Positions 45,299-59,171 of a stretch of 64,000 bases of DNA are shown piece after piece. Position numbers and translations under genes: made by a program. How positions within the stretch are numbered: the first letter of the stretch is position 1; each line of letters opens with the position of its first letter. This DNA is from an uncultured Bacteroidota bacterium (lineage in GTDB: Bacteria; Bacteroidota; Bacteroidia; JABEUT01). The stretch covers positions 1 through 64,000 of the forward strand of contig CAIWVW010000121.1 in NCBI GenBank assembly GCA_903916255.1. Direction: 5' to 3'. The notes beneath the pieces were generated by a model. It searched no databases. It was not told where the DNA came from and was given only the letters and a program-made list of their open reading frames with translations.

Positions 45299-46147
45299 CT
45301 ATCTCTCAATCCCTCTCTCCTTCGATTTTTCATTTCCATTCTCTCTTAATCTCCTTAGTTCCTTCTCCCTCTCAATTGACTTATCGAGTTCCTTTAATTT
45401 TTCATCCGTGAATCCAAGCGTACTGAACCGGAACTTTCGGCCCTGATATAGTATTCCGGTAACCTTTCCGCCACGGGAATAACTGGAAAGCCCGGATTCA
45501 TTCAGTAGTTCAAAAAAGCTTTCTTTTGAGAAAACTTTTTTGTAGCATGTTTGGAGTGTTTCAATAATTTTTTCTTTTTCAGATTCCCTTCCGGTTCTAT
45601 GTTTGTGTTGGTACTCTTTTTCCGTGACAAGTGATTTATTTTTTCCTCCATGCTCTACTATTGAATGAGATAGTTCAGGATATTTTTCCACTTGGTAATT
45701 CTGAATATTCTTTTTTAATTTCTGCAATTCAGCTTTTGAAAGCCGCAGGGATTTGCCGTTGTGATATTCAATACCGGAAGCACAGACATGGACATGATAG
45801 TGTCCCTTGTCGAAGTGTGGAACGGCAATATACAGGCCGTTGGGATTTCGGAGCTTTATGTATTCCCGTGTCATTTCTTCCAACTTCTTAAGGGTAATAT
45901 CTTTTGCATCGTCCCGATGCCAGGAAAGAATTTCATGGGTGAGCAGTACGTTGTCTTTGCGCCGCTGTGTCCTATATGTTTCATTTTCCTTAAACTGCAT
46001 TTCCCATTCATTAATATTGTTGCCTTTTAAATTATAGGTAACGATAAAACTCTTACCCTCTCTATCAAACAGGCGGTCTTTATCGTGGAGCATATATTCA
46101 AGTAAATCATGAAAAGACTTCTTATGCGATTTAATTTTCAGTATCAT
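45299..46147 (-). CDS. Relaxase/mobilization nuclease
   Basis: GLYIAVPHFDKGHYHVHVCASGIEYHNGKSLRLSKAELQKLKK (HxHxH-like). Internal Met (MILKIKSHKKSFHDLLEYM) is preferred over the ORF-track start, which would overlap the upstream gene heavily. Confidence 0.82.
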   Translation of the reverse strand: MILKIKSHKKSFHDLLEYMLHDKDRLFDREGKSFIVTYNLKGNNINEWEMQFKENETYRTQRRKDNVLLTHEILSWHRDDAKDITLKKLEEMTREYIKLRNPNGLYIAVPHFDKGHYHVHVCASGIEYHNGKSLRLSKAELQKLKKNIQNYQVEKYPELSHSIVEHGGKNKSLVTEKEYQHKHRTGRESEKEKIIETLQTCYKKVFSKESFFELLNESGLSSYSRGGKVTGILYQGRKFRFSTLGFTDEKLKELDKSIEREKELRRLRENGNEKSKERGIER

Positions 46148-46634
46148 AGTTACCAAATAGCGGCGGATTCCGTAACGCTTCGCTGAGTTCTTTTTGAAGG
46201 TCAGTGATGCGTTTTTCAATCGCATTGTATTTTTCTTGTTCCCGTTCAGAGGAATATTTTTCTTTAGGTGGAGCAATACGCTGTACTTCATTCAGGTATT
46301 GCGCCAGTAACTGTTCTATTCTTGCCACCTGAAACCTGTCCGGCACGATGTAGGTTTTATTAATATATGCCAGTGTAGCATTTCTAATAAAGGCCGTGAT
46401 GGACATGGAATGCCCATGAGCGGCACGAGCCATAGTATTGAATTCCCCATTTTTTCGGGAAAGGTTAATAATATATTCCGGCTTTACTTTTCGCTCTCTT
46501 TTTCTGTAAGCAAGCATATAGTTTTTGCGGTACTGGCGTTTTGCAGTTTTAATTTGCTCGTCAGTCCCATGCTCAAGAACACCGCAAGCTTCCAGATATT
46601 TCCATAATGGACTTCCCTTTGGTGTCTTACGCAT
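46131..46634 (-). CDS. MobC-like mobilization accessory protein
   Basis: INLSRKNGEFNTMARAAHGHSMSITAFIRNATLAYI; directly upstream of the relaxase. Confidence 0.7.
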   Translation of the reverse strand: MRKTPKGSPLWKYLEACGVLEHGTDEQIKTAKRQYRKNYMLAYRKRERKVKPEYIINLSRKNGEFNTMARAAHGHSMSITAFIRNATLAYINKTYIVPDRFQVARIEQLLAQYLNEVQRIAPPKEKYSSEREQEKYNAIEKRITDLQKELSEALRNPPLFGNYDTEN

Positions 46635-48069
46635 TGGCTTCAGGAAGAGTTAATAAAGGAACTACTTCAGGAGCGGTGCTAAGAATTGGTGGCTGTGGAA
46701 TCAAACTATATTTCATGAATCTATTCCTTTTGTAATACGGCACGACCTTTGCCAAAATGGGAGGATAGAAACCACAGATAAGAAGGGCCTGTGTTGCGGG
46801 CATGGTGCGAATTTCATCGCTGGTCATAAGAGGTCGAACTACGGTTTTTTTCTTTTTATCTTCATACTGAAACCGCCCCAAGGTAAATTCAAGTTCTTTC
46901 GCAGTCTCTAAAGATTGCCCGGTGAAATACATTTTTGCAAAGCAGTTTGATTTTATGGATTCAGCATCGTATCTTCCGTAATGTTCCGTAATCTGAGCAA
47001 AATCTTGGACTATCAGCATAATGCCAGACCGATGTTTGCGAACATTGGCAACGGCCAGTGGCAGGGTTGGCAAGTTGAGTGAACTTGCTTCGTCAATGAG
47101 CAGAAATATATCCCTTTCATTTGCACCGGGAATTCTTCCCAATGCAAATGAAAAGAATTGCTCAAAGAAAAGTGAAGTTATTACGCTATAGTACCGTTGG
47201 TCAGCTACTGAATTTTGTATGTACAAAGCAACTGGCCTATTTCTAAAATTCTGCATTGAAATACTATCACTTGCCGTTACACGAGCCACTGATTCATCCG
47301 TGAAAATTTGAAGGGCGGCTTTGCACGTTGCAATTATTCCGCTCACTACTTTCTCATCATAAGAGACGAAGGATTTGTACTCTGCATACAAAATTTCATT
47401 CCCGGCGCGGGAAAAAAGCCTATCAATTTTTTCAGGTGAACTTCCCAATTGAGTAAGTAATTGCCGGAGGTTATACAAGTTTTGGAAGGAAGGGTCTTGT
47501 TTTTTCAGAACGGTTATGAGTATTGCAAGAAGCCCGACAGCTTGTGTGGTCCAAAACGGGTCTTTACTTTTTGCACCAAGAGAATTTGCCACCAAGAGCG
47601 AGGCCACCTTCTGAATATCCGAAGAGCTATTGGCACGGGCAAGCGGATTAAATGAAGATGAAGCGGCAGGGTTTGCAAAATTCAGTACCTTAATATCATA
47701 GCCTCGCTGTTTCAAGAACCCGGCGCTTTTTGTATAGAGTTCACCGGAAGGGTCATGGATAATGAAACTGGAATGCATGGTATAGAGGGACGGCAACAAC
47801 ACTATGCTCGACTTCCCCGCCCCCGTTCCGCCAATAATCAGCGCATTTTGATAGGAGTTGCGAACAGATAAATTCTTTCTTCCGGTAAGACAAAAGCCGT
47901 CATTTCTTTTTGATAACAGCGTTCTTACCGATGCAAAACGAGCTGTGTATTCCTCTTTTCTTTTAGGTATACCTGTAATAAGTTCTGCAATGTTTTCCCA
48001 CGCAAACGTAAAAATACCTTCAATTATTTCAGCACAAAGTTTTAAAACTTGTTCTATGAAATCTATCAT
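46627..48069 (-). CDS. TraG/VirD4-type conjugative coupling protein
   Basis: NALIIGGTGAGKSSIVLLPSLYTMHSSFIIHDPSGELYTKSAGFL; DIFLLIDEASSLNLPTLPLAVANVRKHRSGIMLIVQDFAQI. Confidence 0.9.
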   Translation of the reverse strand: MIDFIEQVLKLCAEIIEGIFTFAWENIAELITGIPKRKEEYTARFASVRTLLSKRNDGFCLTGRKNLSVRNSYQNALIIGGTGAGKSSIVLLPSLYTMHSSFIIHDPSGELYTKSAGFLKQRGYDIKVLNFANPAASSSFNPLARANSSSDIQKVASLLVANSLGAKSKDPFWTTQAVGLLAILITVLKKQDPSFQNLYNLRQLLTQLGSSPEKIDRLFSRAGNEILYAEYKSFVSYDEKVVSGIIATCKAALQIFTDESVARVTASDSISMQNFRNRPVALYIQNSVADQRYYSVITSLFFEQFFSFALGRIPGANERDIFLLIDEASSLNLPTLPLAVANVRKHRSGIMLIVQDFAQITEHYGRYDAESIKSNCFAKMYFTGQSLETAKELEFTLGRFQYEDKKKKTVVRPLMTSDEIRTMPATQALLICGFYPPILAKVVPYYKRNRFMKYSLIPQPPILSTAPEVVPLLTLPEANA

Positions 48070-48073
48070 TGTT

Positions 48074-48784
48074 TTATTGCAAATTAGCTTCTACCGTTAC
48101 AATTGCTCCTTTTTGTTCTAGGAGATTTTGATAAAATTTAGATACGATGCTGTATTGCCAATCGCTTATTGTTCCGGCAGGTTGGTAAATAAGATAAACT
48201 TGAATACCGTTAAGCTGACTAAGCGGCACTTCTTTTTCAAAATACTTTTCAATGACACCTGGATTAGATTGGAGCAAGCTAAATTCATTCGGATAGTAAA
48301 ATGAAACGGCTATATCATTTTCCATAAGGTCGCTGTATATTATCAGTATTCTATTTTGAGCCGGACTTTGCGCCATACGGTTAAGTTCTCTTGCGATGGG
48401 CGCATAAATTGAAGAATGCCATCTGCCGATTTTTTCCTTTTTGGCATCGGTAATAATACTTTCTACATCAGTGTTAAATTGGCTAACCTCACTATTTCGT
48501 TTCAACTCATTAGAGAGCCATTGGTTGGCTGTACTAACACTGGCCTCTTTCACCTGGGTATAACCCACATTGGAAATATCTGCGAACTGAAATTGCGCCC
48601 CGTTCCAGGCATAATTGGAAAGGTTAAATAACGGAAGAATAGTGTCCGTCTGTGGTTGTGCCAATTGTGGCGAGGTAATATCCCGAAGAACTGATACTTC
48701 TGTTGTTGTTTGTTTTGGTGTAGCATAAGCAACAGCAAAAACAGCCCCACCAATTATTAAAATGGTTCCGATTATATATTTCAT
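48074..48784 (-). CDS. Membrane-anchored protein of unknown function in the mobilization operon
   Basis: N-terminal TM; NRILIIYSDLMENDIAVSFYY; overlaps neighbours in an operon. Confidence 0.6.
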   Translation of the reverse strand: MKYIIGTILIIGGAVFAVAYATPKQTTTEVSVLRDITSPQLAQPQTDTILPLFNLSNYAWNGAQFQFADISNVGYTQVKEASVSTANQWLSNELKRNSEVSQFNTDVESIITDAKKEKIGRWHSSIYAPIARELNRMAQSPAQNRILIIYSDLMENDIAVSFYYPNEFSLLQSNPGVIEKYFEKEVPLSQLNGIQVYLIYQPAGTISDWQYSIVSKFYQNLLEQKGAIVTVEANLQ

Positions 48785-49863
48785 CGTATTTTGGAATTAG
48801 AACTAATTGCTTTGACCGTATCGTGGCTTATGTCCGCTTCCGGCAAATCGTCATAGAAACAGTCCGGGGTTTGGTTGTCCGTCCTAAATGAGAGGTTGGT
48901 ACTTTTAAATGTTTCCAATCCTTCCCGATACAGTTTTTTGCTTCGTTCAACAAGATACCTTGCATAATAAGCGGCCCGGATATGTTCTTTGGTACTTTGA
49001 AGAATATTATCTTTCAGTAATTCCAAATCCTTTTTTCGCCCTGAAATCTCATCGCTACGCTTGCTAATTGCCTTAGCAAGCTTTGTCATGGCAAAGTGTT
49101 CTTTGAGTTCATCTAACGTAGGGAAAATATAGTAGGAGAGCAAAGAAGCAACGACAAAGAAAAATACATTTATTACAACAAAATAAACTGGAGAAATAAC
49201 CACATTGAGTTGCTGTAAAAAAACAGAGCGCAGAATTGCCATTGCAGAAAAGAGAGTTGTGGCAAGTACGAGAGAACCTGAAATAATCAGTATCTTTTTT
49301 GTATGGCTTTCAGCCTCTTTGTAGAGAAGCGGCGTGAGGTGAGTTAAGATAAATTCCGCCACAGAAACAGAGATGGAAAGGATTAGCGAAAAGAGCATAT
49401 TTCCCCCGGTTACCTGAAACACTTGGGTATTAAAAATCACTTCTCCCATCCCAATGAGAGCCGTTACTATTACAGCCGTTCTTATTCGTGCAATAATATT
49501 GCTAGGAACATAGTTTCCGAGCGCATATTCATCATTATGATTTTGCCCTTCCAGTTTCTCAATTTCCGCTTCCAGTTCTTTTTTCTTACCCTTTGCCCAT
49601 TCAGCGTCCATGCGAAGTTCCGGCAAGTGGGTTATCGGTTGCAGGTATTGATGAATGTACGCAGCCAGTTCTTCATAGCCACTTTTTATATCCCCGATAT
49701 ATGGCTCAAGATTGTCGCCTTTTGGCAGTGGTCGGTTGGATTTCGCAAAATTAATTGCGTTTTTACGTGCCAGTTCTTTGAGGGCAGCATCTTTTTTACT
49801 GATGTTGTTTTCCAGTGCAGGGTCGCTATACCCAGCAGCTAAAATATTGCTGATGTGTTGCAT
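48781..49863 (-). CDS. Coiled-coil membrane protein of unknown function in the mobilization operon
   Basis: Coiled-coil EWAKGKKKELEAEIEKLEGQ, several TM segments; 4-nt overlap with next gene. Confidence 0.6.
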   Translation of the reverse strand: MQHISNILAAGYSDPALENNISKKDAALKELARKNAINFAKSNRPLPKGDNLEPYIGDIKSGYEELAAYIHQYLQPITHLPELRMDAEWAKGKKKELEAEIEKLEGQNHNDEYALGNYVPSNIIARIRTAVIVTALIGMGEVIFNTQVFQVTGGNMLFSLILSISVSVAEFILTHLTPLLYKEAESHTKKILIISGSLVLATTLFSAMAILRSVFLQQLNVVISPVYFVVINVFFFVVASLLSYYIFPTLDELKEHFAMTKLAKAISKRSDEISGRKKDLELLKDNILQSTKEHIRAAYYARYLVERSKKLYREGLETFKSTNLSFRTDNQTPDCFYDDLPEADISHDTVKAISSNSKIR

Positions 49864-49972
49864 GATATTTTTTAAGATTAAAACTGATAATGGAACAGGC
49901 GGAAGAATTGTCCTAATAAATCACTAAGCAAAGAGCCGCATTGCTGTGGCTCTTTGCTCAACGGATAATTCG

Positions 49973-50170
49973 CTAATCCTTTTCCCCATCAGGGGGTAAA
50001 GGTTCTTCATCTCTCTCAAAAACAAAGAAGGTAGTTTCCGGCTGATGGAACAGCCGGATGTATTGATTTCCATTTTCAGTTATTTTTAGAAATCCGACCC
50101 GATACCAACTGACCTTCTTTTCTCCGTTTACTTCATATACCCTTTGCGTACATATATTAAATATTTTCAT
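49973..50170 (-). CDS. Small protein of unknown function
   Basis: Probable start MKIFNICTQRVYEVNGEKKVSWYRVGFLK. Confidence 0.5.
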   Translation of the reverse strand: MKIFNICTQRVYEVNGEKKVSWYRVGFLKITENGNQYIRLFHQPETTFFVFERDEEPLPPDGEKD

Positions 50171-50202
50171 ATTGTTTTCTTTCTTACTGCTTACTAATAA
50201 TG

Positions 50203-50361: not shown

Positions 50362-50405
50362 GTAAGAATGAATAATTGCCGGGTACGGCAATTATTCATT
50401 CTTAC
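50362..50405. promoter_or_regulatory. 44-nt palindrome: two-sided version of the TTGCCG-N4-CGGCAA site (site 1)
   Basis: GTAAGAATGAATAATTGCCG-GGTA-CGGCAATTATTCATTCTTAC, 20-bp perfect arms, between divergent gene sets. Confidence 0.85.
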
Positions 50406-50465
50406 CAGGGTAGAGAAAGTGAGTAAGAATGTTGGAGATTCACAAAATAAAGCGAATCTGCTACT

Positions 50466-50738
50466 ATGAACTCACAACACAGAAGGTTAAAAAGCGATAA
50501 CAATAATTTTGTACCCGAAGAGGGGCAACGAGACCTTTTGTGTTGTAACAAGGAGTCGCTACGTTGCCCCTCTTTGGGCGTTGAAGAGGTTGAATTAACC
50601 GATGAAACAATACAAGCCATGAAAGAGTTAGGGGAAATATTAAGGGGAATTCATAATCGTCTTATTTCAGAGGGATACACAATACGTAAGGGTGTAATCA
50701 CAAAGCCAAATGCAAACACACAAAAACCAACTGAATAA
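50466..50738 (+). CDS. Small protein, paralog of 52896-53105, overlapping the recombinase start
   Basis: EVELTDETIQAMKELGEILRGIHNRLISEGYTI shared with the 52896 protein. Confidence 0.65.
   Translation: MNSQHRRLKSDNNNFVPEEGQRDLLCCNKESLRCPSLGVEEVELTDETIQAMKELGEILRGIHNRLISEGYTIRKGVITKPNANTQKPTE
50514..50578. repeat. Hairpin element with 17-nt arms (one mismatch), inside the small ORF
   Basis: CCCGAAGAGGGGCAACG ... CGTTGCCCCTCTTTGGG. Confidence 0.8.
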
Positions 50739-52494
50739 TGTGTCGGAGAAAGAAATCTTAAAGGAAATTTCCAGTGGAAGATATAAAGATTTTTACCTTA
50801 TTTATAATCGCAAAAGCACCGATGAACCGGAAAACCAAAAAAATTCTATCAAATATCAGAAGTCCGAAAATGTTCGTTTTGCATACAAAGAACATTTGCC
50901 AATCGCTTCTGTTAGCTTGCCGGGCTTTTGTATTGACGGAATAATTTCGGAAAAGCATTCCGGATTCAAAGAAGATACAGCTTTATTATTCGGAAAAGAA
51001 GGGACTGTACAATACCGAATTGACCGACCAAAATTTTACCAACTCGTCCAATTTTTAAGCGAGGGATATTTTAAAGGTGTCATATTTCTTTGTTGGGATA
51101 GAGCGAGCCGCAATCGTGGTGATGATACGGTAATACGTAAATTGATGAAGCAACGCATTGATTTCCGTTTCACCCTGGCAAGTTATGATAAAACCAGTTC
51201 AGGCGCACTCCACATGGACATTGATGGAATGTTTGCCGAGCATCATTCCAGGGTAACAAGCGAAAAGGTTTCTTTGAATATTAAATATAAGCGTGACCAG
51301 GGGTTTTGCACCCACAAAGCCCCGGTTGGCTATCAGAATCTTGGGAATATGGAACATAAGCCATTTGACCCAGTAAGAGCCCCGGTAGTAAAAAAAATGT
51401 TTGAACTTTATGCTACTGGCAACTGGAGCCTTGCTGATATTGTCCGTTATGCAATAGAACAAGGATTTACTATGACACCAACACGCAGACAAAAAACGAA
51501 AGAAGAACGTCAGATGGAGGAGGAAGATGATATTACAATTGAACCCGAAGCCGTATGTCGTATTCCAACTTTCAATAATATTCACAAAATCTTAGTTAAT
51601 CGATTTTATACCGGAGAAGTAATTAATAGTAACGGCGAATTTATTCCAAGCAAAAGCCACGAGGCCCTTGTTTCAAAGAAGTTGTTTGAACAAGTGCAAG
51701 GTTTGCTAAACAAGAAAAACAAAAGTGTACATTATATCGAAAGATTAGATTATCCCATGCGTGGCTTAGTGCATTGCAAAGTTTGCGGTCGAGTTTACAC
51801 GCCTTATGAAAAAAAAGGAATTACATATTTCGGTAGCCGTTGTGCAAGAGATTGCCCCAACAAGAAAAAGAATATTAATATAAGATATCTTTCGGAGCAA
51901 ATCGATGGCATTTTAAACGCCCTCTATTTTACAGAAAAAGAACTTGCCCGACTTGCTGCTACTGAAAGTACGGATATAGCACTCTTTGAAATCAAAAGGC
52001 ATTCACAGCTTGAATTAAATGAGAACAAAAAGAAAAAGATACGGGAAGACCTTGCATATATTAATAGCAATAGGCTAACCTTGTTAAAAACAGGCGCATA
52101 TTCCCCCGAAACGATAGTAGCCGAAGAAAAAGACCTCAATGACAAATTGGCCGTCCTGCAAGATGAAGAAAGCACATCTGATGCATCAATGAGGGAAACA
52201 ATGAAAGAAATCATAAAACTTTCCGAACTCTTAGAAACCGTTTATTCATACTATGAAAACGCGAATCCCTATGAAAAGGAGATAATCATTAAAAAAATCT
52301 TTTCCGAACTCAAACTTGACGAAACCGGGTTGAAATATAAGGTTAAAAAAGAATTTGAACCCTTTGAAAAGCGTTTCATTGCCCCTTGGGTTCTCAAGGG
52401 TTGGCTTTCCGAAACAATACAATACGCCAACCTATTTAAATTAGTAATAAAAGACCTTGAAATATATATTCAAGATAAGGAATTGCATATATGA
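50710..52494 (+). CDS. Large serine recombinase (resolvase/invertase type with zinc ribbon)
   Basis: YLIYNRKSTDEPENQKNSIKYQ; GVIFLCWDRASRNRGD; MRGLVHCKVCGRVYTPYEKKGITYFGSRCARDC. Confidence 0.93.
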   Translation: MQTHKNQLNNVSEKEILKEISSGRYKDFYLIYNRKSTDEPENQKNSIKYQKSENVRFAYKEHLPIASVSLPGFCIDGIISEKHSGFKEDTALLFGKEGTVQYRIDRPKFYQLVQFLSEGYFKGVIFLCWDRASRNRGDDTVIRKLMKQRIDFRFTLASYDKTSSGALHMDIDGMFAEHHSRVTSEKVSLNIKYKRDQGFCTHKAPVGYQNLGNMEHKPFDPVRAPVVKKMFELYATGNWSLADIVRYAIEQGFTMTPTRRQKTKEERQMEEEDDITIEPEAVCRIPTFNNIHKILVNRFYTGEVINSNGEFIPSKSHEALVSKKLFEQVQGLLNKKNKSVHYIERLDYPMRGLVHCKVCGRVYTPYEKKGITYFGSRCARDCPNKKKNINIRYLSEQIDGILNALYFTEKELARLAATESTDIALFEIKRHSQLELNENKKKKIREDLAYINSNRLTLLKTGAYSPETIVAEEKDLNDKLAVLQDEESTSDASMRETMKEIIKLSELLETVYSYYENANPYEKEIIIKKIFSELKLDETGLKYKVKKEFEPFEKRFIAPWVLKGWLSETIQYANLFKLVIKDLEIYIQDKELHI

Positions 52495-52539
52495 GTTCCT
52501 TATCTTTTCATTTTAACAGAGCGCCTCCCTGATAGCGAG

Positions 52540-52569
52540 TTGCCGAAATCGGCAATTATTCACTCTTAC
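52540..52569 (+). promoter_or_regulatory. Palindromic site 2
   Basis: TTGCCG-AAAT-CGGCAATTATTCACTCTTAC, upstream of the 52629 XRE gene. Confidence 0.75.
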
Positions 52570-52628
52570 ATTAAAAGTCTAATTTATTTAATCTCTATTT
52601 ATTATTAGTTAATAACAATATTTAGTAT

Positions 52629-52895
52629 ATGAAAACACCAATACCAAATACATTAAAAGAACGTCGAAAACAAGCTGGCTTACGCCAGATGGATGTGGCT
52701 AATACCTTAGGATTCCATAGCATAGATAGAATATGCAGATGGGAGAAAGGTAGAGCATATCCTCATGTGCGTAATCTCTTTAAGCTCTCTAAACTCTATG
52801 GAGTTAAACCACATGAGTTGTATGCAGAACTCTTGGAGAATCTTCAGGTAGATGAAAGTCAGTTGCCGGAGGAGAAAAGGATTAAGTTTACTTAA
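52629..52895 (+). CDS. XRE-family HTH regulator
   Basis: LKERRKQAGLRQMDVANTLGFHSIDRICRWEKGRAYPHVRNLFKLSKLYGVKPHELY. Confidence 0.9.
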   Translation: MKTPIPNTLKERRKQAGLRQMDVANTLGFHSIDRICRWEKGRAYPHVRNLFKLSKLYGVKPHELYAELLENLQVDESQLPEEKRIKFT

Positions 52896-53105
52896 TTATT
52901 TTTTTCTCCTTTGATATGGTTTATATGGTTCTAAAGGAACATTTAATGTCCCATCAGGTTTATAAATTTTACCATCTTTGATTGTATAGCCTTCAGAGAT
53001 TAGTCTGTTGTGAATTCCTCGCAAGATTTCACCAAGCTCTTTCATGGCCTGGATTGTTTCCTCTGAAAGTTCCACTTCAGGAGTTTCATTGTTTTGGTTT
53101 TGCAT
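52896..53105 (-). CDS. Small protein, paralog of the 50466-50738 product
   Basis: MQNQNNETPEVELSEETIQAMKELGEILRGIHNRLISEGYTIKDGKIYKPDG. Confidence 0.75.
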   Translation of the reverse strand: MQNQNNETPEVELSEETIQAMKELGEILRGIHNRLISEGYTIKDGKIYKPDGTLNVPLEPYKPYQRRKK

Positions 53106-53131
53106 AAATGTTTGTGGTTAATAATAAAAAA

Positions 53132-53147
53132 TACCGCAGGAGCGGTA
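53132..53147 (-). terminator. Probable intrinsic terminator for the 53236-54657 gene
   Basis: Minus strand TACCGC-TCCT-GCGGTA followed by TTTTTTATT. Confidence 0.6.
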
Positions 53148-53235
53148 GAGTTGTATTATCCACTTGGAAAATAAAAGCACCATTTTTACATTGGTGTTTT
53201 TGTTTTACCTGTCTTCGTACTTTCAGGAAGGGGTT

Positions 53236-54657
53236 TTAGTATTTTGTACCAACGTAGAATCCATGCCTACCACCACACCTGTACCCATTTTTATCTTTAT
53301 GAACTCCAAGACTTCCATTATTTTTGGTCTTTGTGAATTTTCTGCCACAATAGGAACATTGATAAGTATATTTTGGACCAAAATGCTTCTTGCTATATGA
53401 ACTACCTATTCTTACTCTAGATATAGGTGAGCGTGTAGGTCTATTGGGATCAAAAAGATACGGATTTTCGGGTCTTTCACCTGCTTTAGATAATTCGATT
53501 GGGTATCGTGGGCTAAACTTTTCTTCGGTATTTTCAATAGATTGGAAATTCTCAGGAACAAAGCACCTGATGCCTGGCATACTTCTTCCTCCAACAGCAT
53601 TATAAACATATAAATATTCGCGCTCTGCTCCATCTTTCCGCTTAAGATATTTAAGGGAGTATGGTTCTATTATTCTCTCTTGATGATTGTATATTATCTT
53701 AAGAAGTGTTTGCTCACGACCTGCTTTCATTATTTTAACCCTTATGTCCGCATCAAAGTATGCAAATTGATAATAACTATTGTCTGGGTAGATTGAAAAA
53801 AGACCTTCTAAATCAGCTAAGAAAAAGGTAATTGCTTCTTCAACTCCAAAAATAGTCTGCTTTGCACAAATGATTGTCTTTACCCAAAATTCTTTAAAGA
53901 AATCAAAAGGTGTTTTGTGCAAAATCTCTTTAAGAACATGAGGGTTTCTTCCAAAGATGGTTTTTTGAACAAAAGTTTCCACAACTTCTTCCTTATTTAA
54001 ATTACCACCCAATAATTTTATTGAATATACATAATCAAATAGGTCGGGAGCATGTTGCCTTTGCAAGAGACATTTTAGTTTCGTTGCAATGATCTCTTCA
54101 AGTTTCATACATTGAATTTCGCAGGATACCTCAGAAGCATCAGAATATGGATGTATTAATTTTACCTTTTGAAGCGAAAGCAGTATCCTATCAAATCTTG
54201 TAATGTCCATTGAAATTTTTATCTTCAGATGATCTGGTTTTCCATAGAAGTCTTTGAAGTAAATTTTTGCTTCATAAACCTTTAGATCAGGTATTGGAGC
54301 TTCACTAGCAAGGAATTTTTCTTCTACTTTGTTATCCTCCTTAACAAAAGCTACCCCGGCCTTTTCTTGGATAAAATCACAAACTTTATTAATTTCTTCC
54401 AGTAAAATAGATTGCTCAATATCTCCAGGAATCCCAAAATCTAAATCGGATGAAAACCGAGTATTTTCAAAATACCCCTTTCTTAAAGCGTTACCGCCCT
54501 TTAAAAAAATGGAGTCCTTTAATTCACTAACAGTAAAGATTCCAGAAATAAACCAACCGAAAACGTAATCTCTTTCCACGTTGGCTATATGGATTTCAAA
54601 TTCCTTTGATTTGGCTTCTATTTCTTCACGAGTAATCACAAAGGCAATTATACTCAT
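53236..54657 (-). CDS. AbiEii/AbiGii-type nucleotidyltransferase with WYL-like and zinc-finger-like C-terminal regions
   Basis: FLKGGNALRKGYFENTRFSSDLDFGIP; IIEPYSLKYLKRKDGAEREYLYVYNAVGGRSMPGIRCFVPENF; YQCSYCGRKFTKTKNNGSLGVHKDKNGYRCGGRHG. Confidence 0.85.
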   Translation of the reverse strand: MSIIAFVITREEIEAKSKEFEIHIANVERDYVFGWFISGIFTVSELKDSIFLKGGNALRKGYFENTRFSSDLDFGIPGDIEQSILLEEINKVCDFIQEKAGVAFVKEDNKVEEKFLASEAPIPDLKVYEAKIYFKDFYGKPDHLKIKISMDITRFDRILLSLQKVKLIHPYSDASEVSCEIQCMKLEEIIATKLKCLLQRQHAPDLFDYVYSIKLLGGNLNKEEVVETFVQKTIFGRNPHVLKEILHKTPFDFFKEFWVKTIICAKQTIFGVEEAITFFLADLEGLFSIYPDNSYYQFAYFDADIRVKIMKAGREQTLLKIIYNHQERIIEPYSLKYLKRKDGAEREYLYVYNAVGGRSMPGIRCFVPENFQSIENTEEKFSPRYPIELSKAGERPENPYLFDPNRPTRSPISRVRIGSSYSKKHFGPKYTYQCSYCGRKFTKTKNNGSLGVHKDKNGYRCGGRHGFYVGTKY

Positions 54658-54760
54658 TTATCGTGAGTTCGGAAATCTTTATTTGGGTCTTTACATTCTA
54701 TAAATAATATTGTCCCAGAAGCCTTATGGAATATAGGAAATTGTTATTTATAACAATCGA

Positions 54761-54847
54761 TGGGTACTCAAGGGTTGGCTTTCCGAACTCCTTACATATT
54801 CATCTTATATAAAGAATGGTATTAAAGAACTGGAAATTTATCAATAA
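54761..54847 (+). pseudogene. 3' remnant of a second serine recombinase
   Basis: Translates to WVLKGWLSELLTYSSYIKNGIKELEIYQ*, matching the C-terminus of the intact recombinase (WVLKGWLSETIQYANLFKLVIKDLEIYIQ). Confidence 0.8.
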
Positions 54848-54854
54848 TGAAAAA

Positions 54855-54870
54855 TTGCCGGGTTCAGCAA
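54855..54870 (+). promoter_or_regulatory. Palindromic site 3
   Basis: TTGCCG-GGTT-CAGCAA, upstream of the PemK/MazF-like gene. Confidence 0.65.
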
Positions 54871-54910
54871 TTTTCAAAAATCAAAGAAAAGAGTATGATA
54901 TAATTTTATT

Positions 54911-55312
54911 ATGAAACCTGAAGAGAAAAACTATGATGATTGGAATATTGTTAAAAAACAAACCGATAGCATTAAAGCGGAAATTAAATTACGTGCTGGA
55001 GAAATTCGTTGGTGTAGATTTGGAATCAATATCGGTAATGAAATAATTGGGAAAGACAGTACTTTCCATAGACCTGTATTGATTTTAAAGAAATTTTCTG
55101 GTGATGTATTTTTTGGTTTACCGTTAACTACAAAATCACATAAGGGAGATTGGTATTATCAAATCATTCATAGCGATACAACCCAAACAATTATTTTAAA
55201 TCAGGGAAGAATTTTAGATAGAAAAAGACTTGAAGAAAAAATGTTTGAGGTGTCAGAAACTGAATTGGAAAAAATAAAGAAAGCGTACTGTACTCTAATA
55301 AGTAAGGCTTAA
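54911..55312 (+). CDS. PemK/MazF-like toxin family protein
   Basis: LRAGEIRWCRFGINIGNEIIGKDSTFHRPVLILKKFSGDVFFGLPLTTKSHKGDWYYQI...ILNQGRILDRKRL. Confidence 0.85.
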   Translation: MKPEEKNYDDWNIVKKQTDSIKAEIKLRAGEIRWCRFGINIGNEIIGKDSTFHRPVLILKKFSGDVFFGLPLTTKSHKGDWYYQIIHSDTTQTIILNQGRILDRKRLEEKMFEVSETELEKIKKAYCTLISKA

Positions 55313-55410
55313 AAATACCAAAGGCCGCCTTTCGTTTAGACGGCCCTTGAATGGGTTACCCCAACTTGTACTTGAAGTATATATAATCCCGTTGGAAAGT
55401 CAACTAGTTA

Positions 55411-55803
55411 TTATAAATTGCTAAATACCCCTTTTGTTGGTTTCTTTTCAGAGGCTTCCCTTTCCATCGCAACATGAATTCCCTTTATTTTCCGCTCATC
55501 CAGTTCCGGTGAATTCCAATTATTAGGCTTATAGAATGACCCAAACCCTTTTCCAAAAACAAAGTCGTGTTCTTTTTTAAATTTAGGATTTGTAAAAATT
55601 TCAAGATAGGTAAACAGATTATTCACCACTTCAATATTAAATGCCTTCATCTCTTTATCTGATATTTTTCCTTCTGCATGATAATTTTCAATAACGGTAT
55701 TGCGCACCCCATGAACTGCCAACCGAAGGGCTAATTCTTGGTTGCTTTTGCTGCATAATTCCTCTTTTATAGTGGGGTTTTTCTTCATAAACATATTAAG
55801 CAT
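55411..55803 (-). CDS. Hypothetical protein
   Basis: Long ORF with no overlapping competitor; no family recognised. Confidence 0.5.
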   Translation of the reverse strand: MLNMFMKKNPTIKEELCSKSNQELALRLAVHGVRNTVIENYHAEGKISDKEMKAFNIEVVNNLFTYLEIFTNPKFKKEHDFVFGKGFGSFYKPNNWNSPELDERKIKGIHVAMEREASEKKPTKGVFSNL

Positions 55804-55913
55804 ATACCGCCCACTCTTAGGAAGTCAATTAAATCTATAAACCTAAATATCCCTTATTTTATAGGGTAAAGGCCAACAAGTGTTGGAATAAGAGGCTTAT
55901 TTGTCTTAGGCAC

Positions 55914-55942
55914 TTGACATTTTATTAAATATGTGTTACTAT
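55914..55942 (+). promoter_or_regulatory. Sequence resembling a sigma70 promoter of the proteobacterial type
   Basis: TTGACA - 17 nt - TACTAT. Confidence 0.4.
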
Positions 55943-55974
55943 ATACGAGTATAGAGTTAAGTTATCCCCAAAAA

Positions 55975-55990
55975 TTGCCGAATCCGGCAA
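55975..55990 (+). promoter_or_regulatory. Palindromic site 4
   Basis: TTGCCG-AATC-CGGCAA, with arms extending to AAAAATTGCCG/CGGCAATTTTT; upstream of the 56041 XRE gene. Confidence 0.75.
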
Positions 55991-56040
55991 TTTTTCCCTT
56001 CTATGTTAACCCACCAGCAATTGGTAGGTTTATTTTAATT

Positions 56041-56337
56041 ATGGAACAGTTAATAGCAAAACTGAAGAAGTCCATCCGGTACAGGATGTATCGGAAGAAG
56101 AGACACTTTTCGCAAAAGGAGGCCGCCGGGAAGTTGGGGCTTAAATCTCCTGCCGAACTATCACGCTGGGAAAGCGGTACGCTGACACCACGACTTATTA
56201 ATATCTGTAAGCTTCTTTTGCTGTACGATGTTTCCTTTGAAGAACTTTTTCATGATTTCCTTGAAGTGGTGCGGGAGGAATATCCTGAATTAACGGAGAA
56301 CCCACATGTTGCAAGCAGTACAAATATTTATGAATAA
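56041..56337 (+). CDS. XRE-family HTH regulator
   Basis: MEQLIAKLKKSIRYRMYRKKRHFSQKEAAGKLGLKSPAELSRWESGTLTPRLINICKLLLLYDVSFEELF. Confidence 0.88.
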   Translation: MEQLIAKLKKSIRYRMYRKKRHFSQKEAAGKLGLKSPAELSRWESGTLTPRLINICKLLLLYDVSFEELFHDFLEVVREEYPELTENPHVASSTNIYE

Positions 56338-56824
56338 ATCTATTCCAAAATCAAAAACAGTTCTTGGGATTAGCCTAGGGACAAGGTACACGGGCGTGGC
56401 CGTTTTCCGGCACGGTGAACTTATAGAATACCAGACAAAGGTATTTAATGGAAAAATAACGAAAAAGAAATTGAAACGTATTCTTAATTCTTTGGAAAAA
56501 CAGATTGCATATTACACTGTAGATTCTATTGCAATGAAAATACCGGAAGGCGAAGCACGTTCAAAAGAAATACGGCAAATAATTTTAGATATAGAAAAAA
56601 TCGCAAAAGATAAAAAGCTGCAATTTTTCAGATATACTATTTCCGATTTAAAACAAACATGTTTCCCTGATGAAAAAGCGAACAGGCAAGACTTGGCGGA
56701 ATATTTGATGCAGAAATATCCTGAACTCTCCTTCGTGGAGAAGTGCGGTTTAAACCGGCACACATATTACGGGAAAATGTTTGAAGCGGTGGCTGCCGGA
56801 ATGCAGCATTGCATAAAACCATAA
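56330..56824 (+). CDS. RuvC/RNase H-fold-like protein
   Basis: VLGISLGTRYTGVAVFRHGELIEYQTKVF; DSIAMKIPEGEARSKEIRQI; KMFEAVAAGMQHC. Confidence 0.65.
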   Translation: MNKSIPKSKTVLGISLGTRYTGVAVFRHGELIEYQTKVFNGKITKKKLKRILNSLEKQIAYYTVDSIAMKIPEGEARSKEIRQIILDIEKIAKDKKLQFFRYTISDLKQTCFPDEKANRQDLAEYLMQKYPELSFVEKCGLNRHTYYGKMFEAVAAGMQHCIKP

Positions 56825-56840
56825 TTGCCGAAGTCGGCAA
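56825..56840 (+). promoter_or_regulatory. Palindromic site 5
   Basis: TTGCCG-AAGT-CGGCAA followed by TTATTCACTCTA, upstream of the methylase-like gene. Confidence 0.75.
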
Positions 56841-56897
56841 TTATTCACTCTATCTGTAACATTTCATCCCTGCTATTCTTTGCATAAAACAGTTCTT

Positions 56898-57680
56898 ATG
56901 CAACAAAAAAAAGAAACCTTTGAAAGTATTATTGAGTCGTTCCGATACAAGCACGACTTGCGTTCCGTCTTTGACGATTTCCTAACCATGACCCTGTGTG
57001 CTTTTTCATTTAACCCCGCAACGGGTAAATCCTACCAAGAGGAACTGTACTTGGAAACCATTGCCAAGTACAAAAAAGAGGAAGGGCTGAAATTTCCAAA
57101 TCTGCTTGCAACCCTCACAAATGAAATGGAAGAGAGATTAAGCGATAGCCAGGGCAATGATGTACTTGGAGATTACTACGGAAACTACCTATACAGGAAA
57201 GGGGCACAGCAATACTTCACTCCCTGGCATGTTTGCTTAATGATGGCAGAGTGCTCGTGCGGTGAAAGTAAAAAAGTGGAGCAAGAAAAACCGCTCCGCA
57301 TACTTGACCCCTGCTGTGGAAGTGGACGGATGCTTCTTGCTTCAGGTAGGGTAAATGGGCCTGGGCATGAATATTACGGAATAGATATTGACAGTACATG
57401 CGTAAAAATGACTGCCATTAACCTATTCTTAAACGGCATGTTTCATTCAGAGGTCATGTGCGCCGATGCTTTAGTCCCGGAAGATTTCAATTTCAGCTAC
57501 CGTATTTCATTTTTACCATTTGGAATATTCAAAGTTGAGAAAAAAGAAGATTCCCTACTATGGCATCTTAGCAAAGAGTCTTTCAAGAAACCCGCACCGG
57601 AAAACAATTTATTATTGCCTTCAGAGGAAAACAATCACAGTAAAAATTCGCAAGAAAGTACACAGCTTACTTTCTTTTAA
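56898..57680 (+). CDS. N-6 adenine DNA methylase-like protein with degenerate motif IV
   Basis: GAQQYFTPWHVCLMMAE; LRILDPCCGSGRMLLASGRVNGPGHEYYGIDIDSTCVKMTAINLFLNG; NPPY replaced by SYRISFLPFGIFKVEKKE. Confidence 0.8.
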   Translation: MQQKKETFESIIESFRYKHDLRSVFDDFLTMTLCAFSFNPATGKSYQEELYLETIAKYKKEEGLKFPNLLATLTNEMEERLSDSQGNDVLGDYYGNYLYRKGAQQYFTPWHVCLMMAECSCGESKKVEQEKPLRILDPCCGSGRMLLASGRVNGPGHEYYGIDIDSTCVKMTAINLFLNGMFHSEVMCADALVPEDFNFSYRISFLPFGIFKVEKKEDSLLWHLSKESFKKPAPENNLLLPSEENNHSKNSQESTQLTFF

Positions 57681-57687
57681 CGAATGC

Positions 57688-57719
57688 AAAGCAACCCCAA
57701 AAAAAGGGTTGCTTTTTTT
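57688..57719 (+). terminator. Rho-independent terminator
   Basis: AAAGCAACCC-caaaaaaa-GGGTTGCTTTTTTT. Confidence 0.9.
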
Positions 57720-57730
57720 CTTTTTACCAA

Positions 57731-57746
57731 TTGCTGACTTCGGCAT
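57731..57746 (+). promoter_or_regulatory. Palindromic site 6
   Basis: TTGCTG-ACTT-CGGCAT followed by TTTTTCACTCTTA. Confidence 0.7.
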
Positions 57747-57827
57747 TTTTTCACTCTTATTTCCCTTCGCTGTTTTACATAGACTGTTTTGGAACACTAA
57801 TTCCTTAACAATTTTAAAACAAAAAAC

Positions 57828-58310
57828 ATGTGTACAAGCAGAATTGCGGTATTGCAAAAAGAAGACGGTTCAGTAAAATCGGTTTACTGTCGTCATTCAG
57901 GAAATCTTTCAGGATTTGGAGCAGGTCAAACGCTATTAACGCATTACGACACTTATGAGAGAGCTAATGCATTGGTAGCATTGGGTAAATTACAGTGGGT
58001 TTGCCAATATCTTGACCCGTTACCGGAAGCACCACACGCTTATTCACTTAACCGAACGATCAAAACTCATTCCATGAGAAGCCCGCAATTAGATGTAACT
58101 ATTGCATACCACCGGGAGGGAAAAAGGAAATTTAGGCAACAAATAGACACATCCGTAGAAAGCTTCTATAAAAACGAACATTTTGAAGAATACAATTATC
58201 TTTTCATGAATGAACAATGGTACGTTAAAAATATAAACTTCACAGATGGAGAGTGGGTTGTATTAACTGAAGAGTTAATATCATTGGAAAATGAGCGGCC
58301 ATTTTCATAA
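57828..58310 (+). CDS. Hypothetical protein, tandem paralog of 58472-58930
   Basis: IAVLQKEDGSVKSVYCRHSG...LLTHYDTYERANALVALGKLQWV...LDPLPEAP...VTIAYHREGKRKF. Confidence 0.75.
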   Translation: MCTSRIAVLQKEDGSVKSVYCRHSGNLSGFGAGQTLLTHYDTYERANALVALGKLQWVCQYLDPLPEAPHAYSLNRTIKTHSMRSPQLDVTIAYHREGKRKFRQQIDTSVESFYKNEHFEEYNYLFMNEQWYVKNINFTDGEWVVLTEELISLENERPFS

Positions 58311-58333
58311 ATAAAAAGTGAACAATTCCCTCT

Positions 58334-58364
58334 AAAGTGGACACTCAAAATGTCCACTTTTTTT
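58334..58364 (+). terminator. Rho-independent terminator
   Basis: AAAGTGGACA-ctcaaaa-TGTCCACTTTTTTT. Confidence 0.9.
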
Positions 58365-58375
58365 ATTTTCAAGAG

Positions 58376-58391
58376 TTGCCGAATCCGGCAT
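58376..58391 (+). promoter_or_regulatory. Palindromic site 7
   Basis: TTGCCG-AATC-CGGCAT followed by TTTTTCACTCTTA. Confidence 0.75.
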
Positions 58392-58471
58392 TTTTTCACT
58401 CTTATTTCCCTTCGCTGTTTTACATAGACTGTTTTGGAATAATAATTCCTTAACAATTTAAAATCAAAAGC

Positions 58472-58930
58472 ATGTGGACACACAGCATAATTGCAGTATT
58501 GCAAAAAGAAGACGGTTCAGTAAAATCCATTTTTTGTCACCGACAAAGTAGGGTTTCAGAAGTCGGTAAAGTCCTTTTAACGTATTACAACACTTACGAG
58601 AAAGCCAATGCATTAATAGCATTAGGTAATGTGGAATGGCTCCGCCAGCGCCTTAATCCATTGCCGGAAGCACCGGAAGCGCATATGCTTGAACCGGAAA
58701 TTATCACAACCCATTCCTTTGAAAGGCCACAGGTAGGCGTTACCGTTGCATACCACAGGGACGGCGGAAAGAAATTTGTACAGAAAGTTGACCCTTCCAT
58801 TGACAGTTTTTATCAATCTCGATATTTACAGGACTACAGCTATCTTTTTATGGATGGCAAATGGTACGTTACTAGCATAACAATTAAACCTCATGAGTAT
58901 GAAGTCAGCAGACGTAAAAGTGCGGCCTGA
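58472..58930 (+). CDS. Hypothetical protein, tandem paralog of 57828-58310
   Basis: IAVLQKEDGSVKSIFCHRQ...LLTYYNTYEKANALIALGNVEWL...LNPLPEAPEAH...VTVAYHRDGGKKF. Confidence 0.75.
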   Translation: MWTHSIIAVLQKEDGSVKSIFCHRQSRVSEVGKVLLTYYNTYEKANALIALGNVEWLRQRLNPLPEAPEAHMLEPEIITTHSFERPQVGVTVAYHRDGGKKFVQKVDPSIDSFYQSRYLQDYSYLFMDGKWYVTSITIKPHEYEVSRRKSAA

Positions 58931-59171
58931 TTCCCTCACGGTTATCAGGAACGACAAGGATGAAATTATTGGCAGCATTTCAATTAATGGTGGTGGCGAA
59001 TTGCAACAGAACAGAACCAAGCTTATTGCAAAGGCCATTAACAGCTATGAATTACTCGTTGAGGCCTTAAAGATGATTCATGTTGAACTGGATAATGGGA
59101 GAGATGATAAGGCGAAAGAGTTAGCGTGTGATGCATACTACAAAGCCACAAAGGAGGTGAGCTATGGATAA
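58893..59171 (+). CDS. Small hypothetical protein
   Basis: Coding continuity with flanking genes; overlaps both neighbours. Confidence 0.6.
   Translation: MSMKSADVKVRPDSLTVIRNDKDEIIGSISINGGGELQQNRTKLIAKAINSYELLVEALKMIHVELDNGRDDKAKELACDAYYKATKEVSYG

Follow-up and report, generated by a model that had tools for sequence, protein, structure and literature searches.

The 64,000-nt window considered here (contig CAIWVW010000121.1, or C121, of assembly GCA_903916255.1) comes from an uncultured Bacteroidota bacterium, and contains part of a mobilizable element with a leftward mobilization operon and a serine recombinase. The element carries nine copies of a motif made up of a 16-bp palindrome, TTGCCG-N4-CGGCAA, and a 13-bp tail, TT[A/T]TTCAYTCTTA; seven of them are in the window, and sites 8 and 9 lie just past its end. 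They are best read as operator-promoter modules, in which the palindrome would be the operator, the tail would occupy the -33 region, and a box, TAnnCT, would serve as a weak -7 element. One regulator probably switches the site-bearing genes together, and we see roughly an even chance that it is the XRE protein which the element itself encodes behind site 4, activating the element genes jointly. The sites, their placement and orientation, the TAnnCT spacing, the lack of the host box, the restriction to the element and the recurrence before orthologues can be read directly from the sequence, whereas the identity of the binding protein, the sign of control (activation, not repression) and the starts of transcription are inferred. 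An earlier note on this DNA listed seven palindromes (at 50376, 52540, 54855, 55975, 56825, 57731 and 58376), always with a 4-nt spacer; all are present as described, but the total for the element is nine.

Site 1 (50362–50405) is a perfect 20+20 bp inverted repeat with the core TTGCCG-GGTA-CGGCAA at 50376–50391 and a full tail on either side, lying between the mobilization operon to the left and a small open reading frame with a recombinase to the right. Site 2 (52540–52568, + strand) has an exact tail and precedes XRE 52629, with the box TAATCT at 52589–52594. At site 3 (54842–54870, - strand) the palindrome (54855–54870) has one arm change, the better tail runs leftward to AbiEii, and the PemK start is 41 nt to the right. 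The next four sites are all on the + strand. Site 4 (55975–56003) is 51 nt before XRE 56041, with TAGGTT at 56025–56030, while site 5 (56825–56853) follows immediately on the stop codon of a RuvC-like gene, 58 nt before an N6-methyltransferase gene, with TATTCT at 56874–56879. Sites 6 (57731–57759) and 7 (58376–58404) precede two paralogues by 82 and 81 nt and have the box TAGACT at 57780–57785 and 58425–58430, respectively; they begin 12 and 11 nt past separate terminators, which speaks for the earlier view of them as promoter-proximal operators. Site 8 (C121:65854) is found 78 nt before an ArdC-type anti-restriction gene (ardC), and the gene that follows site 9 (C121:72721), at a distance of 103 nt, encodes a second large serine recombinase.

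None of the nine sites falls inside a gene, and each is followed by a + strand start at 41–103 nt. The chance of this is about 6e-12 if sites are placed at random, and about 1e-3 when only noncoding positions are allowed. The statement that each copy precedes a gene therefore stands, except that PemK is a doubtful target of site 3, because the tail of this site points the opposite way. Tails are directional, facing the gene start. At the divergent site 1 they are complete on both sides, and at site 3, which also lies between divergent genes, the better one faces left; site 1 may thus be a bidirectional operator-promoter that points at the mobilization operon as well. The tail had been reported after most copies, and it is full in sites 1, 2, 6, 7 and 8 and matches at 10–11 of 13 positions in sites 4, 5 and 9, but is counted as missing to the right of site 3 (7/13), where the left-facing tail matches at 11/13. 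Three units have no site: the NMT1-like ABC operon (59518 on), a small gene (65081) and a STAND-type gene (67360). The targets had been described as cargo genes; the marked ones serve mobility and establishment, not metabolic cargo, and the transporter operon and the STAND-type gene are unmarked.

The motif is strongly over-represented. With up to 2 mismatches allowed, the window contains 15 matches to the palindrome, where 1.83 would be expected from shuffled sequence and no shuffle exceeds 6; for the half-palindrome with its tail, at up to 3 mismatches, 8 matches compare with an expectation of 0.04. A scan of the whole genome, as the earlier note had proposed, places the extended motif only at C121:50363–72749, apart from one non-palindromic match on contig C10. 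Copies of the palindrome alone are also found in the chromosome, where every one inspected is inside a long open frame, and tails that have a suitably spaced TTG but no palindrome occur at chance level in the rest of the genome. The exact motif with its tail was not found in 724 other Bacteroidota genomes, nor did a loose exact pattern match anything in the GTDB contig collection. One motif therefore stands before several separate transcription units and is absent elsewhere in the genome, as in an element-wide operator regulon. This placement and confinement, together with the recurrence of the module before orthologues in other elements (see below), support the shared promoter-proximal operator and the element-wide regulon that had been suggested.

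Promoters of the host were characterized from about 440 kb of genome, using 185 chromosomal upstream regions. Of these, 46% have the known Bacteroidota -7 box TAnnTTTG in the forward direction vs 24% in reverse, mostly 20–50 nt before the start codon, while TATAAT shows no enrichment. Two of the three units that have no site carry this host box, but it is missing from all nine site-to-start intervals (3.6 expected, P about 0.01). Beyond the palindrome and tail, conservation by column picks out one more position, 39 nt past the palindrome, which is the final T of TAnnCT. This box, with a background of 0.4% per position, follows the palindrome by 33–35 nt at six sites (2, 5, 6, 7, 8 and 9) and also leftward from site 1 (TATCCT, 34 nt), and site 4 has TAGGTT there; the box was first noticed at related sites in another genome (L062, below), and afterwards looked for at the nine sites. 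If the -7 box is spaced as in Flavobacterium, at -12 to -5 (PMC9723704), the palindrome would extend from about -61 to -46, with the tail over the -33 region. An alternative in which the 29-bp block is itself the core promoter, its TTG forming the -33 element and its tail the -7 element, was dropped once TAnnCT had appeared at near-fixed spacing in the L062-genome sites, and then here.

Among the matches listed from a relaxed search of 25 genomes for the inner palindromic pattern, 14 were examined for their surroundings. Ten of these are in long open frames, and two of the other four are modules of the genome with locus L062 (G725 and G073, taken as one genome from contig numbers and coordinates). 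Two distant Bacteroidetes genomes have modules with the inner pair TA instead of CG, which precede orthologues of ardC, the N6-methyltransferase and XRE 56041. In G141, which belongs to the same class but another family and has the gene order XRE, RuvC-like, ArdC, recombinase, the module ahead of the XRE 56041 homologue (38% identity) reads GAGTTATCCACATAATTTGCTA-AATA-TAGCAATTTTTACTCCC, compared with AAGTTATCCCCAAAAATTGCCG-AATC-CGGCAATTTTTCCCTTC at site 4. In the L062 genome, TTGCTA-CAAA-TAGCAA precedes ardC by 81 nt and TTGCTA-TAAA-TAGCAA precedes the methyltransferase orthologue (45% identity) by 71 nt; TATACT follows both palindromes at 33–34 nt. The G095, G083 and second G073 methyltransferases and other rec72839 homologues have no comparable palindrome upstream, and XRE 56041 homologues at up to 42% identity have TTGCCG-type palindromes at chance frequency only. 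Relatives of the VirD4-type coupling protein (T4CP) are accompanied by mobilization genes, and the CG-type motif was not seen in the DNA examined there, where one repeat scan was insensitive. Since TA-type modules precede orthologues in the G141 and L062 genomes, the module is older than the present element, goes with particular genes, and swaps its inner base pair between elements.

In the proposed mechanism, a dimeric DNA-binding protein, most likely XRE 56041, would bind TTGCCG-N4-CGGCAA about 46–61 bp upstream of the transcription start. The bound site would abut a core promoter that should be poorly read by the host sigma factor, as the conserved tail replaces the -33 TTG and TAnnCT replaces TAnnTTTG. 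Recruitment of RNA polymerase would then turn on together the recombinases, the mobilization operon, anti-restriction ArdC, the DNA methyltransferase and the accessory genes, and, as site 4 lies ahead of XRE 56041, the regulator would also control its own gene. XRE 56041 seems the better candidate because its G141 homologue also carries the module, with XRE 52629 as the alternative. Activation is favoured over repression because the core promoters look weak and have an upstream box, as in the SetCD regulon of SXT/R391 integrative and conjugative elements and mobilizable islands, where the box bound by the activator makes up for the lack of a -35 (PMC4344509).

Several observations weigh against this activator reading. 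Both XRE proteins are small and phage-repressor-like, a type that usually represses; site 3 fits poorly with its neighbours; and just three related sites were found outside this element. TAnnCT is absent at site 1 rightward, at site 3 in either direction and at the G141 site, and in an unbiased gapped-hexamer/position scan of eight sites, 7 of 300 random sets reach the observed count, so that TAnnCT taken alone is moderately supported.

The likeness to SetCD goes further, in that one box stands directly upstream of many poor core promoters, recombination and mobilization genes are included, and there is a divergent promoter pair (PMC4344509); AcaCD of IncA/C plasmids is similar to SetCD. In both, the box lies upstream of or overlaps a poor -35, and by analogy the palindrome here abuts the tail at the predicted -33 (counted from predicted starts), with host boxes absent. 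Unlike the SetCD case, this element has a short 16-bp palindrome and a Bacteroidota promoter, and includes ArdC and a methyltransferase. No FlhDC-like pair of the SetCD family is seen among the element proteins scanned, although a helper could encode one. It is conceivable, but improbable, that the modules answer in trans to the regulator of a helper conjugative element, as mobilizable islands do to SetCD or AcaCD, and that the element's own XRE proteins act otherwise. Such islands copy the operators of their helper (PMC4344509), and no full transfer apparatus is seen in the examined part of the window; however, no motif-bearing helper was found in the 724 genomes, and the module precedes the element's own XRE gene and its G141 homologue.

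A possible explanation, to which we give distinctly less than even weight, retains the operator regulon but makes the XRE protein an autoregulated repressor, so that the genes are off in the donor and transiently expressed on entry into a repressor-free recipient. The precedent is the establishment regulon of p576 (EGeRS2/Reg576), in which a ribbon-helix-helix repressor acts on dual TTATCCC heptamers at strong promoters (PMC8708921). As in p576, a shared operator is upstream of several promoters, including those of ardC and the candidate regulator's own gene; the methyltransferase, another establishment gene, also has a site. This gene content (ArdC, methyltransferase, recombinases) and the site before the regulator gene would suit a repressor, as would the resemblance of XRE 52629 to the P22 C2 and ICEBs1 ImmR-type repressors, and Reg576 operators likewise lie just upstream of the -35 box (PMC8708921). 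However, the core promoters here look weak rather than strong, and the palindrome is upstream of the promoter and not over it. Unlike p576, the operator is a palindrome and the site-bearing regulators are XRE proteins; no ribbon-helix-helix repressor under its own operator is found among them. In the anti-restriction gene region of the IncN plasmid pKM101, the CUP elements associated with ArdK are likewise repeated upstream sequences, but are much longer than these modules. ArdK is mentioned in PMC6289460.

Readings in which the sites act by other means than a bound regulator fare worse. An RNA hairpin or attenuator in the 5' leader, which the earlier note had kept as an option, might be expected from the T-rich tail and from predicted hairpins that fold better than shuffles at most sites. 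It is nevertheless very unlikely, as three of the four arm substitutions unpair the hairpin and none is compensatory, meaning that the arms are kept in sequence rather than in pairing; the strong terminators directly before sites 6 and 7 leave no room for a promoter in between, and no Rfam family exceeds its gathering score. The position of the sites between genes, the recombinases behind sites 1 and 9, and the recombinase 3' remnant abutting site 3 would be in keeping with recombination sites that delimit gene cassettes and are acted on by serine recombinases. This has very little probability, given that the central four bases vary among copies, leaving no common crossover core, and that the distance from the module to the ardC, methyltransferase and XRE starts is kept in unrelated contexts. 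Equally slight is the prospect of single-stranded DNA promoters active on the entering strand. The Frpo/ssi sequences, too, are inverted repeats that precede genes for anti-defence and methyltransferases on a transferable element, and anti-restriction and methyltransferase genes are typical of a leading region (PMC11541004). Site 1 does form a long stem, but the stems of the other eight (5–11 bp) are too short to hold the -35 and -10 in duplex, and no oriT was located; a search for one through conserved noncoding DNA gave nothing usable.

The circuit is a new form of a known kind of control, the element-wide operator regulon. More speculatively, it may represent an undescribed family of master-regulator circuits in Bacteroidota, in which a small XRE activator would drive recombinases, mobilization and anti-restriction through TTGC-XY-N4-Y'X'-GCAA modules whose core promoter is not of the host type, and differences in the inner pair (CG or TA) between elements would keep the control of co-resident elements separate. 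To our knowledge, the coordination of excision, transfer and escape from host defences has been worked out for few mobile elements of Bacteroidota. Here a concrete operator-promoter module can be named together with the genes under it, the PHROG_1987 family included, and the search pattern TTGCxyN4y'x'GCAA with TAnnCT 33–35 bp on offers a way to establishment and anti-defence genes in uncultured relatives.

The mobilization operon (45299–50171, - strand), which the left arm of site 1 may control, consists of a small gene, two conserved genes, and genes for the T4CP, a MobC-like protein and a MobA/VirD2-type relaxase. Its core is kept as a block in 14 Bacteroidetes metagenome-assembled genomes, with 53–67% identity in the coupling protein. 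The remaining units are on the + strand: the small open reading frame and large serine recombinase (50466–52494; PF00239, PF07508) behind site 1, XRE 52629 (52629–52895) behind site 2, XRE 56041 (56041–56337) with the RuvC-like protein (56306–56824) behind site 4, the N6-DNA methyltransferase-like protein (56898–57680; PF02384) behind site 5, and two PHROG_1987 paralogues (57828–58930) behind sites 6 and 7. The rightward part of the element also holds the AbiEii and PemK-like genes, and after the paralogues come the NMT1-type ABC transporter operon, ArdC, a STAND-type ATPase and the second large serine recombinase. No matching plasmid DNA was found for the 56.7–59.45 kb region.

The STAND-type ATPase (1671 aa, L017:3360–8375) has a host-type -7 box and no site; it is possibly a defence gene, and PADLOC gave no match for it. 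The XRE and RuvC-like genes stay adjacent in several Bacteroidota genomes (56041–56824; L172:420–1583; L243:12633–13385; L244:15520–16297). Directly left of site 4, at 55962–55970, is TTATCCCCA, and left of its G141 counterpart (L172 around 340) is TTATCCACA, the latter identical to the DnaA box. The recombinase remnant immediately left of site 3 (54758–54847) derives from the 3' end of a second serine recombinase gene and, over 30 residues, is 57% identical to the terminal part of recombinase 50710. Paralogous small proteins at 50466–50738 (+ strand, ahead of the recombinase) and 52896–53105 (- strand, behind XRE 52629) share ETIQAMKELGEILRGIHNRLISEGYTI, and two other small proteins (58893–59171; L017:2850–3143), alike by eye, are encoded immediately after the genes that sites 7 and 8 precede. 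Another genome from this genus contains a 160-residue C-terminal fragment of the site-9 recombinase with 91% identity (L166:112–591, G010:C84), perhaps the scar of a related element.

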